The notes beneath the pieces are model-generated. The model did no database searches and was not told the origin of the DNA. It was given only the letters and a program-made list of their open reading frames with translations. DNA of 64,000 nucleotides from Ophiura sarsii (taxonomy: Eukaryota; Echinodermata; Ophiuroidea; Amphilepidida; Ophiuridae), in the NCBI GenBank assembly GCA_035610835.1, contig CM069457.1, positions 15,594,149-15,658,148 of the forward strand, given 5' to 3'. The first letter of the stretch is position 1. Every line of letters starts with the position of its first letter. The translations under genes and the position numbers were made by a program. Shown in pieces: positions 21,333-33,225 of this stretch.

Positions 21333-21394
21333 ACGTAACTATTGAATTGGCATTCAAGCCAGACAAGCCGGCATTATGGCGGAACGTCCGTCAG
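21333..21394 (+). CDS. Gene 2 first coding exon (5'UTR plus MAERPS)
   Basis: Exon after TTTTTACAG at 21332, ending before GTGAGA at 21395. ATG at 21376 opens the frame MAERPS plus one base (phase 1), which joins in frame to the OTU exon at 22238. The choice of start is supported by gene 3, where the same layout (48633-48696, ATG at 48678, MAERPS, GTGAGA donor) is conserved while the upstream UTR has diverged. The short exon supplies only the N terminus. No signal peptide is seen, consistent with a cytosolic product. Confidence 0.72.
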
Positions 21395-30300: not shown

Positions 30301-33225
30301 TACCTTAACAAAATTACCGACGAAAATGTCACTAACATGGAATATCTATTGCGTTTTTGTTCTGGATTGAGCATCAAAGCTGCTTCTTTTATTTTTCCAC
30401 ACGTTATCAATCTCACTTTAAGTGAAAACTGGCAAATCCCCTATATATTATTCTGTGAAACTAAATCAAAAGGGAAACTCATTGACCAATTGATAGTAAA
30501 TGACTCCTTGATGTGCGCCTCATCAGTCAAAGAAGTGTCTATTACGTATCCACGTAGTGTGCAGTGTGAGATACTTATGAGAATGTTGAGTTGTATGTCC
30601 TCGCTCAAATTTTTGAAATTAAAATGTGATGTTGGATCTGTAGGAGAGTCGCAAACTGGAATGACTATTATGTTACAATCACTGACGAAATGCTATGTAG
30701 AATCACGGTCCATCAATGTGAATACACTGGTTAGGTTATTAGGATGTATGCCATCTATTGAGATGCTGGAAATGCATTATGTTAAGGGGACATTGGATGC
30801 TAACATATCTGTAGTGTGTAAATTGCTCAAGAGTTTCAGGATAGAATCATATTCCATCAATGTGAATACACTGGTTAGGTTATTAGGATGTATGCCATCT
30901 ATTGAGAGGCTGGAAGTGCGTACGGTCAATGGGGTATTGGATCCTAACATATCTGTAGTTTATAAATTGCTCAAGAGTTTCAAGATAAAATCAGGGTACA
31001 TCAATGTGAATACACTGGCTAGGTTATTAGGATGTATGCCATCTATTGAGATGATGAAAGTAGTGGATGGTGTTACGGGGACATTGGATGCTAACATATC
31101 TGCAGTGTGTAATCTGCTCAAGAGTTTCAGTATAGGATCAAGGTCCATCAATGTGAATACACTGGTTAAGTTATTAGGATGTATGCCATCTATTGAGATG
31201 CTGAAAGTGGGTGGTGTTGAGGGGACATTGGATGCTAACATATCTGCAGTGTGTAATCTGCTCAAGAGTTTCAGTATAGGATCAAGGTCCATCAATGTGA
31301 ATACACTGGCTAGGTTACTAGGATGTATGCCATTTATTGAGAGGCTGAGAGTGGGTGGTATTGAGGGGACATCGAAGGCTAACATATCTGTAGTATGTAA
31401 TCTGCTCAAGAGTTTCAGTATAGGATCAAGGCCCATCAATGTGAATACACTGGTTAGGTTATTAGGATGTATGCCATCTATTGAGAGGCTGAGAGTGGGT
31501 GGTATTGAGGGGACATTGGATGCTAACATATCTGTAGTGTGCAATCTGCTCAAGAGTTTCAGTATAGGATCAAGGCCCATCAATGTGAATACACTGGTTA
31601 GGTTATTAGGATGTATGCCATCTATTGAGAGGCTGAAAGTGGGTGGTGTTGAGGAGACATTGGATGCTAACATATCTGTAGTGTGTAATCTGATCAAGAG
31701 TTTCATTATAGAATCACGGTCCATCAATGTGAATACACTGGTTAGGTTATTAGGATGTATGCCATTAATTGAGAGGCTGAGAGTGGGTGGTATTGAGGGG
31801 ACATCGAAGGCTAACATATCTGTAGTATGTAATCTGCTCAAGAGTTTCAGTATAGGATCAAGGCCCATCAATGTGAATACACTGGTTAGGTTATTAGGAT
31901 GTATGCCATCTATTGAGAGGCTGAGAGTGGGTGGTATTGAGGGGACATTGGATGCTAACATATCTGTAGTGTGCAATCTGCTCAAGAGTTTCAGTATAGG
32001 ATCAAGGCCCATCAATGTGATGCCATCTATTGAGAGGCTGAGAGTGGGTGGTGTTGAGGGGACATTGGATGCTAACATATCTGTATTGTGTAATCTGTTC
32101 AAGAGTGTCAGTATACGCATCATCAATGTCACCACCTTCCGAAGTCTGAATACGTTTATCATGCTTTTAAATTGTATGCCATCACTTGAGAAGTTGGTAT
32201 ATAATGACGCAGAATTTGAAATAGAGATGATGGAAAAAACGGATACTAACGCATCTAGGCCTATAGGGTGGAAACATGTCAAGACATTTTCTATAAAGAA
32301 AAGTAAGTGGAAACATGTTTGTATGATAAGAAGTACATTTAAGAAGGATGACCCTGAAGACGACAATGAAGACTACAACGACGACGAAGACGAAGATGAC
32401 GACATTGGTATAGACATCAGTACACAAACACTAGGCTGGTGTTGTCTGTTATCAGGTCATGTCTTTGAAGGCGGACGAAATTTGGCAACGGTGTATGAAG
32501 ATCTTGATTCAGTTTGTGAACAATTTGATACTATTTGTGGCGACGTTTTTACTGACTTATCACCTCTATGTAAATACTTGTTTATGAAGAAATTCACTTT
32601 AACGAGGTTAAATGATGATGAAGGTAGCAAGTTGCTCGGGGGTGATGATCATGATAGTGTTGGTAACAGAGATGAAGATAGCGTTTTTGCCGGGGATGAT
32701 GGCGATCATGTTATTGATGGTGACAGAGATGAAAATAGCGTTTTGGTTGGGGATGATGGCGATCATGTTATTGTTGGTAACAGAGATGAAGATAGCGTTT
32801 TTGCCGGGGATGATGGCGATCATGTTATTGATGGTGACAGAGATGAAAATAGCGTTTTGGTTGGGGATGATGGCGATCATGTTATTGTTGGTAACAGAGA
32901 TGAAGATAGCGTTTTTGCCGGGGATGATGGCGATCATGTTATTGATGGTGACAGAGATGAAAATAGCGTTTTGGTTGGGGATGATGGCGATCATGTTATT
33001 GTTGGTAACAGAGATGAAGATAGAGTTTTGGTCGAGGATGATGGCGATCATTTTATTGTTGGTAACAGAGATGAATGTAGCATTTTGGTCGGTGATAATG
33101 ACGCTCATGGTAGTACGATGAATATGACGGCGGTTGATGACGATAGCGATGACGATTCTACTTCCTCATGTTTGATATGCTGCAAATGGTGTAGGCTGAT
33201 TTTGAGAGGCAATAATTATCATTGA
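21376..33225 (+). CDS. Gene 2: OTU-NACHT-LRR receptor (full gene model)
   Basis: Coding exons: 21376-21394, 22238-22497, 26990-27251, 27768-27914, 28483-28749, 29120-33225. They sum to 5061 nt, exactly 1686 codons plus stop. Predicted protein: OTU protease residues about 8-180 with putative catalytic Asp54, Cys57 and His176; unknown linker 181-229; Gly/Asn linker 230-318; NACHT with P-loop 405-413; winged helix; LRR-like units; repetitive acidic tail. OTU domains are cysteine proteases that usually cleave ubiquitin chains, and NACHT-LRR proteins are cytosolic immune sensors. A receptor that edits ubiquitin on activation is the inferred role. The donor at 27252 is GTCTGT, weaker than the GTATGT of gene 3. 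The second coding intron is swollen by transposons. Not shown to be transcribed. Confidence 0.82.
22045..22135 (-). repeat. tRNA-like B box / old SINE in gene 2 first coding intron
   Basis: The reverse strand carries GTTGGTTCGAATCCTTTGTA, a perfect B box. The same element is at the matching place in gene 3 (about 49165-49260), so it was there before the duplication. The rest of intron 21395-22237 is otherwise plain. Confidence 0.45.
22238..22497 (+). CDS. OTU protease exon 1 (gene 2): Asp/Cys catalytic half
   Basis: 260-nt exon, entered in phase 1 after TTTTCCAAG at 22237 and left in phase 0 before GTGAGT at 22498. It encodes the N-terminal OTU half with the hallmark SDGNCFFHAVSDQL: catalytic Asp54 and nucleophile Cys57 of the joined protein, followed by the usual aromatic-His-Ala-Val helix. 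The preceding [10 protein letters not shown] strand region is also typical. The active-site residues are intact, so catalysis is possible. The domain is completed by the exon at 26990. Confidence 0.88.
23026..23078 (+). repeat. Poly-G tract, about 50 nt
   Basis: Almost uninterrupted G with single C and T breaks, in the second coding intron of gene 2. Able to form G-quadruplexes; its length may be an assembly approximation. Confidence 0.85.
23285..23667. mobile_element. TTAA-flanked palindromic MITE (family A)
   Basis: Starts TTAAAGGTATATTATGTGAT and ends with its near complement ...CGTAATATGCCTTTAA. Almost the whole 383 bp folds back on itself around ACTGTCGGCATATAACACCG. TTAA ends are typical of piggyBac-type elements. 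Second copy at 44267-44648. Confidence 0.85.
23766..25901. mobile_element. 2.1-kb TIR element with internal minisatellite (gene 2 intron)
   Basis: Ends GGGACCGTTCATTATTTCTA and TAGAAATTATGAACGGTCCC are inverted; AATGTA flanks both sides. Poly-G and poly-C tracts lie just inside the ends. It holds tandem units of about 105 bp (GCTTTAAAACACCGAAAATC, then TATTTTGTGGGCACATGCGC) at 24374-24450 and about 25248-25720, split by a long inverted repeat (about 24450-25240). A 68-bp hairpin with arms AATTGAAGGGGTGG/CCACCCCTTCAATT is at 24008-24075. No transposase. Confidence 0.75.
26102..26628. mobile_element. GC-rich TIR MITE (gene 2 intron)
   Basis: Left arm GACGTCAAAACTCGACCGCC and right arm GGCGGTCGAGTTTTGACGTG, continuing inward through GTTGACCGCCGGTTACG and its complement, about 65 bp each. 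No open frame with a domain. Confidence 0.8.
26990..27251 (+). CDS. OTU protease exon 2 (gene 2): His catalytic half
   Basis: 262-nt exon, phase 0 in and phase 1 out, after CCTTCTCAG at 26989. It encodes [20 protein letters not shown] (the conserved Trp-Ala-Asp helix of OTU domains), then the DILVVTSSP strand, and [14 protein letters not shown] with the putative catalytic His176 in the HY pair. It is two codons shorter than the gene 3 copy in the loop before VMLGH. The donor is GTCTGT, so splicing efficiency may be reduced. If retained, translation stops soon after at the TAG near 27275. Confidence 0.86.
27283..27565. other. Insertion in gene 2 intron 3 relative to gene 3
   Basis: The shared sequence GGGGGCT...TAGTGGATTCCATAATGA is contiguous in gene 3 (50344-50383) but separated here by about 280 nt holding inverted GAGCTCTTAAGTT/AACTTAAGAGCTC. 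Probably a small foldback transposon. Confidence 0.5.
27768..27914 (+). CDS. Post-OTU linker exon (gene 2)
   Basis: 147-nt phase 1-1 exon after TTTTATACAG at 27767, donor GTAAGA at 27915. It encodes a polar segment (VPFDPITVSSSESVQEDIIP, later [20 protein letters not shown]). It matches no domain I recognise. The 147-nt length and nearly all residues are kept in gene 3 (54903-55049), which indicates coding constraint or recent duplication. Confidence 0.78.
28134..28227. mobile_element. 94-bp mariner-type MITE
   Basis: CAGGGTGTATCATCAAAAG and CTTTTACTCACCCTG ends with TA on both sides (28132-28133, 28228-28229). Intron of gene 2. Confidence 0.65.
28483..28749 (+). CDS. Gly/Asn-rich linker exon type A (gene 2)
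   Basis: 267-nt phase 1-1 exon after TTATTAATAG at 28482, donor GTAAGT at 28750. It is homologous to the gene 1 linker at 3631-3891, including GGIAIGGNVTGPIHIYN. Upstream intron sequence (about 28270-28330) also matches that of gene 1 (about 3117-3180), so exon and flank moved together. In gene 2 this linker follows the OTU module; in gene 1 it follows Death. Gene 3 lacks it. Confidence 0.8.
29120..33225 (+). CDS. NACHT-LRR-acidic tail exon of gene 2
   Basis: Exon after GATTTTACAG at 29119, open to TGA at 33223-33225. Walker A GVAGSGKST is at 29377-29403; Walker B CLFLIDGFDE is at about 29593-29622; then TTRP and the winged-helix signature [17 protein letters not shown] near 30208-30258. LRR-like units run 30711-32120. 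A short acidic stretch (32341-32405) precedes the conserved WCCLLSGHVFE...SVCEQFDTICGDV...FTLTR end, after which a 19-residue repeat tail runs to about 33100 and the protein finishes with a Cys-rich patch (CLICCKWCRLIL). NACHT core motifs are intact, which argues for a functional ATPase switch. Confidence 0.9.
30711..32120 (+). repeat. LRR-like array, 144-nt units, gene 2
   Basis: About 10 units of 48 residues of the same type as gene 1. A higher-order duplication is visible: the atypical GIEGTSKANIS unit occurs at about 31369 and again at 31801, exactly 432 nt (three units) apart, with near-identical neighbours. The last unit lost 27 nt (NTLVRLLGC) at about 32020, keeping frame. The pattern fits unequal exchange in whole units. 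Confidence 0.88.
32640..33100 (+). repeat. 57/114-nt coding tail repeat of gene 2
   Basis: Tandem 19-residue half-units, GDDGDHVIDGDRDENSVLV alternating with GDDGDHVIVGNRDEDSVFA, giving a 38-residue, 114-nt higher unit. About eight half-units are present and the alternating pairs are almost identical in DNA. The tail is acidic and probably disordered. It follows the conserved FTLTR motif, where gene 1 instead stops. Confidence 0.9.

Follow-up and report, generated by a model that had tools for sequence, protein, structure and literature searches.

A predicted OTU-type deubiquitinase domain at the N-terminus of a NACHT-LRR gene family in the brittle star Ophiura sarsii

Introduction

Animal NLRs, among them NOD1/2, NLRC4, NLRP and the sea-urchin, coral and sea-cucumber families, share an N-terminal effector, a central NACHT domain and C-terminal repeats; PYD is one such effector. 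Ubiquitin editing acts on NLR pathways in trans, and OTUD5/DUBA and A20 tune NF-kB-type signalling in mammals, likewise in trans. OTUD3, OTUD1 and OTUD5/DUBA are stand-alone deubiquitinases with neither NACHT nor LRR. Here we describe a gene (gene 2) from a 64,000-nucleotide stretch of the 1.57-Gb genome of the brittle star Ophiura sarsii (C17:15594149-15658148, hereafter the window) in which an OTU domain is predicted to precede NACHT and LRR-like repeats in a single protein.

This locus has the general layout of the animal NLRs and departs from them in its predicted effector: PMC13133943 names Death, CARD, Ig, DED and glycosyltransferase domains, and OTU is not in that list. No animal NLR with an OTU domain is named in the best-ranked titles and abstract openings of our literature search, which did not extend to subscription papers and preprints. 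Neither the Amphiura genome paper (PMC11310086), which places its immune gene tables in supplements, nor the Ophiura genome paper uses the words NLR, NACHT or OTU in its main text; nor does OTU occur in the main text of a survey of fungal NLR effectors (PMC9815663).

Results

A sequence-only reading of the window had proposed that the OTU and NACHT exons of gene 2 form one protein of 1686 residues with putative catalytic residues Asp54, Cys57 and His176. Joining the exons reproduced this frame, its junctions and all three residues: from 21376 to 33225 on the plus strand, six exons (Table 1) separated by five introns, all of them GT-AG, give a single 1686-amino-acid frame whose sole stop is terminal. 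The same reading had made recognition of the OTU by a domain search one of its tests, and Pfam does recognise it (PF02338, 44.5 bits against a gathering score of 23.3, E 2.8e-11, residues 52-147 of the joined N-terminus). The long exon matches the NACHT profile PF05729 (69.8 bits against a cut-off of 26.7, E 3.2e-19). The C-terminal tandem units of 48 amino acids (144 nt) look LRR-like, their Pfam LRR match of 18 bits lying below the cut-off of 27; matches to NOD2_WH and NLRC4_HD, the winged-helix and helical parts that follow NACHT, occur in genes 1 and 3 only, also below cut-off. Taken together, the OTU-NACHT-LRR architecture predicted for gene 2 is well supported.

The nearest solved structures are human OTU deubiquitinases, which share the predicted fold and the catalytic residues with the domain described here and differ from it in overall sequence (18-27% identity in the fold search). 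OTUD5 came first in a single-sequence search (E 0.0018), and a profile of six OTU domains from the brittle star Amphiura filiformis matched OTUD3 (3e-9), OTUD5 (4.8e-9) and OTUD1 (2e-7). The structure prediction suggested earlier was run on the OTU of the Amphiura protein P0007, 55% identical to that of gene 2; the model superposes on OTUD1, OTUD3 and OTUD5/DUBA and has the OTU fold.

The arrangement is repeated within the window. When the gene 2 exons were compared with it by tblastn, OTU exons and linker were found also to precede the third NACHT-LRR exon, and this gene 3 (48678-61988) joins to 1570 amino acids with the layout of gene 2 minus exon 5: the exons come in the same order and phases, the first exon (MAERPSG) is the same, and so are the catalytic residues. 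Exons 2-6 of gene 4, outside the window (C17:15.674-15.694 Mb), join to an open frame of 2798 amino acids, and no exon 1 turned up in the 1.5 kb inspected for it. The joins of genes 2, 3 and 4 are thus all open, with matching phases in the three copies. On C15, the more distant copies L047 and L048 keep the order OTU-OTU-linker-NACHT, with NACHT about 58% identical; their frames are unjoined, and L048 has a stop after NACHT and a weak exon-4 match. For gene 1, the genome search with an OTU query listed no OTU exon upstream on its contig, and the gene may therefore lack an OTU. This apparent absence makes the fusion less general and leaves its presence in genes 2-4 unaffected.

The same query gave 100 matches in the genome, of which 39 places with OTU exon B at 45% identity or more were tabulated. 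Twenty-seven NACHT places are at least 59% identical to gene 2, and for 20 of these the 30 kb upstream contain an exon B in the same orientation, 1.9-15.4 kb away; about 0.0004 per NACHT would be expected with randomly placed exons, although, owing to tandem duplication, the 20 cases do not count as independent. One more NACHT, at 46208343 on C15, is preceded at a distance of 8.4 kb by a split exon B (C15:46.199 Mb), which would raise the count to 21/27. Four further places on C6 carry exon B at 86-87% identity. In three of them a NACHT-LRR frame of another kind comes next in the same orientation, about 25% identical to the NACHT of gene 2 (Pfam NACHT 1.2e-18 in L043; frames unjoined), and in the fourth the adjoining stretch holds, by eye, an LRR part. 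An OTU exon of the gene 2 type thus lies ahead of a second NACHT subfamily. Besides these groups and the L041 copy described below, the 39 exon-B places include 14 others. None of 19 tabulated, more distant NACHTs has an OTU within 30 kb, a result that is not evidence of absence since only 110 of 360 candidates were scored for that list, which also missed the C6 NACHTs. An OTU match at C16:62.914 Mb was considered as a third OTU-NACHT lineage and rejected, being only 28-31% identical.

Two other classes of OTU-bearing locus were seen. At L041 (C17:15.723-15.733 Mb, minus strand), the OTU and linker exons are followed, in the same orientation, by a BACK-Kelch frame, possibly as an OTU-Kelch fusion and possibly as a chance neighbour. 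Other OTU loci of the Pfam search are distant: L001, L002, L004 and L005 are 30-37% identical to the OTU of gene 2, and L007 gives no match. L002 (integrase-like plus OTU) and L007 (helitron-like plus OTU), both named by eye, are long, element-like frames of a kind that might be an ancient source of the OTU module.

The closest known relatives come from Amphiura. Two protein searches with gene 2, of a type that finds only sequences sharing 5-residue words, returned ten distinct proteins, none of them bearing the name of a sea urchin, sea star or sea cucumber. Six are from A. filiformis and all six have an OTU; the others are P0006, P0009, P0011 and the fungal P0012. P0007, an uncharacterised NCBI entry, holds OTU, NACHT and LRR within one protein of 1310 amino acids. 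It resembles gene 2 in domain order and in its OTU (55% identical over the matched part). Its NACHT, however, belongs to a different branch (34% identity across 51% of the query), and the exon-5 motif is not seen by eye. Its matches in the Ophiura genome range from 35 to 59%; the best reach 43% over most of its length and at most 59% in pieces. The other five place the OTU elsewhere: on a kinase with two OTUs (P0008), in kinase-OTU-NHL (P0014), TPR-OTU (P0015) and DUF4559-OTU-SEFIR (P0013) proteins, and in a TNFR_c6-OTU-AlbA_2 protein (P0010) whose TNFR_c6 match, at 25.5 bits, is just below the cut-off of 29.4 and which has a transmembrane stretch by eye. A full-length model of P0014 reached a predicted local distance difference test score of only 33. 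The Amphiura kinase-OTU exons reach at most about 60-68% identity among the Ophiura loci fetched.

Selection on the effector was gauged by the ratio of non-synonymous to synonymous change (dN/dS; Nei-Gojobori, one gene pair per value). The OTU exons of genes 2 and 3 look constrained (0.33), and NACHT gives 0.28 (genes 2 and 3) and 0.36 (genes 2 and 1). Among the 30 best OTU loci, each place counted once and with the exclusion of two partial matches per exon and of L002 and L005, which are element-like or unclear, catalytic Asp and Cys are kept in 19/19 first OTU exons and His in 22/22 second exons. Outside the active site the copies vary at many positions. After the OTU, the donor GT stands directly 3' of CTAG in 21 of 22 copies, the exception being L021 (CTAAGT), and the residues that read-through past this donor would encode vary between groups of copies.

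Exon 5 is a separate module, skippable in frame because its flanking phases are 1-1. The closing stretch of the exon, GGTLGNVSQEGDGGIAIGGNVTGPIHIYN, recurs in genes 1, 2 and 4 as GDGGIA[IV]GGNV[ST]G; the cassette was recorded at 28483-28749, 3633-3896 and L039:3661-4044, and gene 3 has no match to it. Likeness to the insect cryptic RHIM may extend beyond the tetrad. The core, IAIG or IAVG, fits V/I-x-V/I-G and fails V/I-Q-V/I-G, the canonical tetrad given in PMC12119088, and we therefore call the motif only RHIM-like. It is like the RHIM and cryptic RHIM amyloid motifs in its core and differs from them by the missing Q, which the insect VHIG (PMC9531809) also lacks. A genome search with exon 5 gave only these copies and one weak place, L064:1390-1764 (C10:62.494 Mb, E 7.7e-4), where a frame carries GEGGIAIGGDVNG; it could be a homotypic partner for the exon-5 motif. 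No recognisable domain was seen by eye in about 15 kb around it, and a protein search with the exon 4-side linker end and exon 5 alone (residues 268-322) gave no match.

Some further features of the window were recorded. Asp-rich C-terminal tails end all three NACHT-LRR exons (32647-33109, 9149-9444 and the end of gene 3); those of genes 1 and 2 are tandem repeats, as is, by eye, that of gene 3. A long GATT tetranucleotide array of about 113 copies (57280-57730) lies shortly before the NACHT exon of gene 3, and a palindromic repeat pair resembling a miniature inverted-repeat transposable element (23284-23668 and 44266-44648) matches in both orientations (78% and 92%).

Table 1. Exons of genes 2, 3 and 1 in window coordinates
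Feature	Position	Strand	Remarks
Gene 2 exon 1	21376..21394	+	start codon, MAERPS; gene 3 shares first exon and donor with synonymous changes
Gene 2 exon 2	22238..22497	+	OTU first half, putative Asp54 and Cys57 (TPSDGNCFFHA)
Gene 2 exon 3	26990..27251	+	OTU second half, putative His176 (ELHYRSL)
Gene 2 exon 4	27768..27914	+	linker, phase 1-1; matched in gene 3, L039, L041, L043, L044, L045, L046
Gene 2 exon 5	28483..28749	+	phase 1-1 cassette, RHIM-like motif GDGGIAIGGNVTGPIHIYN
Gene 2 exon 6	29120..33225	+	NACHT; LRR-like repeats with a period of 144 nt; Asp-rich tail; stop codon
Gene 3 exon 1	48678..48696	+	MAERPS
Gene 3 exon 2	49320..49579	+	OTU first half (VDGNCFYHA)
Gene 3 exon 3	50049..50316	+	OTU second half (ERHYRSL)
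Gene 3 exon 4	54903..55049	+	linker
Gene 3 NACHT-LRR exon	57970..61988	+	
Gene 1 exon 5 cassette	3633..3896	+	GDGGIAVGGNVTGPIHIYN; match limits, not splice sites
Gene 1 NACHT-LRR exon	5704..9720	+	start is a match limit

Discussion

We consider it probable that gene 2 is a real NLR gene with an OTUD-type OTU cysteine protease as its N-terminal effector, and that it belongs to a lineage-specific OTU-NACHT-LRR family. The earlier interpretation as an OTU-bearing NLR is strengthened by the recurrence of the OTU-to-NACHT order in the paralogues and in an Amphiura protein; gene 3, the RHIM-like motif of exon 5 and the membership of a family go beyond it.

Several observations weigh against this reading. 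The gene 2 donor at 27251 (GTCTGT, found also in 5 of the other 21 copies) is weaker than that of gene 3 (GTATGT), and the stretch between OTU and NACHT, encoded by exons 4 and 5, gives no sign of constraint, with few changes to count (dN/dS 2.0 for exon 4 in genes 2 and 3; 1.2 for exon 5 in genes 1 and 2). The fold model is that of P0007 and not of gene 2 itself, and the protein database search gave no protein matching gene 2 or gene 3 as such. One copy, L030, keeps Asp and Cys with one residue lost between them. The copies are tandem duplicates and hence not independent, and 7 of the 27 close NACHTs, gene 1 included, have no tabulated exon B within 30 kb, so that the OTU is not obligatory (one of the seven has the split exon B).

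The strongest rival, though an improbable one, holds that the OTU is an integrated decoy, copied as bait from some host deubiquitinase that pathogens attack, in which case the NLR would sense tampering and catalysis would be incidental. The integrated domains of plant NLRs offer a parallel, and one OTU upstream of two NACHT subfamilies would suit a bait, as would the many differences among copies outside the active site. That the active-site residues are nonetheless kept in the copies read, that the domain occupies the N-terminal effector position, and that related Amphiura OTUs sit on kinases and on TNFR-like and SEFIR proteins, where a decoy is less natural, all argue the other way. Retention of Asp, Cys and His in the copies read also speaks against the idea that the OTU is catalytically dead, a scaffold that binds ubiquitin and localises the receptor, since a binding-only domain would not need these residues; we regard such a scaffold as unlikely and a catalytic role for the OTU of gene 2 as likely.

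It is somewhat less likely still that the OTU exons and the NACHT exon belong to separate transcripts that are merely neighbours. The 4.5-kb intron within the OTU, the weak donor at 27251, the absence of constraint in exons 4 and 5, and the fact that an unspliced exon 3 would reach a stop after 8 further codons could all be so read. Phases nevertheless match in the three joined copies, the donor position is kept in nearly all copies, linker exon 4 can be identified in 6 of the 8 loci examined for it, and P0007 is recorded as one protein. Finally, that the OTU is a transposable-element piece in introns upstream of an ordinary NLR is very improbable, although the module may have an ancient element origin: the genome does hold element-like OTU frames (L002, L007), but the OTUs of L001, L002, L004, L005 and L007 are distant or unmatched, and the OTU exons of the family look constrained and share the position of their internal intron.

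If gene 2 does encode an NLR with an OTU effector, its action can be envisioned as follows. A ligand sensed by the LRR-like repeats would open NACHT, and the opened NACHT would oligomerise, bringing the OTU domains into a cluster. The clustered OTUs might then shorten the ubiquitin chains of signalling proteins close by and so tune NF-kB-type signalling; the sequence does not decide whether the effect would be to damp or to release it. Exon 5, as an optional cassette, may add a second, self-assembly output. One could go further, in a scheme that we hold to be possible but doubtful, and picture a brittle-star innate network built around one reusable OTU module. Two or more NLR subfamilies would have it as their effector, and it would be carried also by kinases, a SEFIR protein and a TNFR-like receptor, in the role that death-fold domains play elsewhere; on some NLRs the RHIM-like cassette would give a switchable amyloid output.

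Were a sensor to carry its own deubiquitinase, receptor activation and ubiquitin editing would become one event, and gene 2 would offer a natural single-chain system for asking what follows when editing is forced to coincide with oligomerisation. If this is true, echinoderm immune repertoires would use enzyme effectors beyond the death-fold set.

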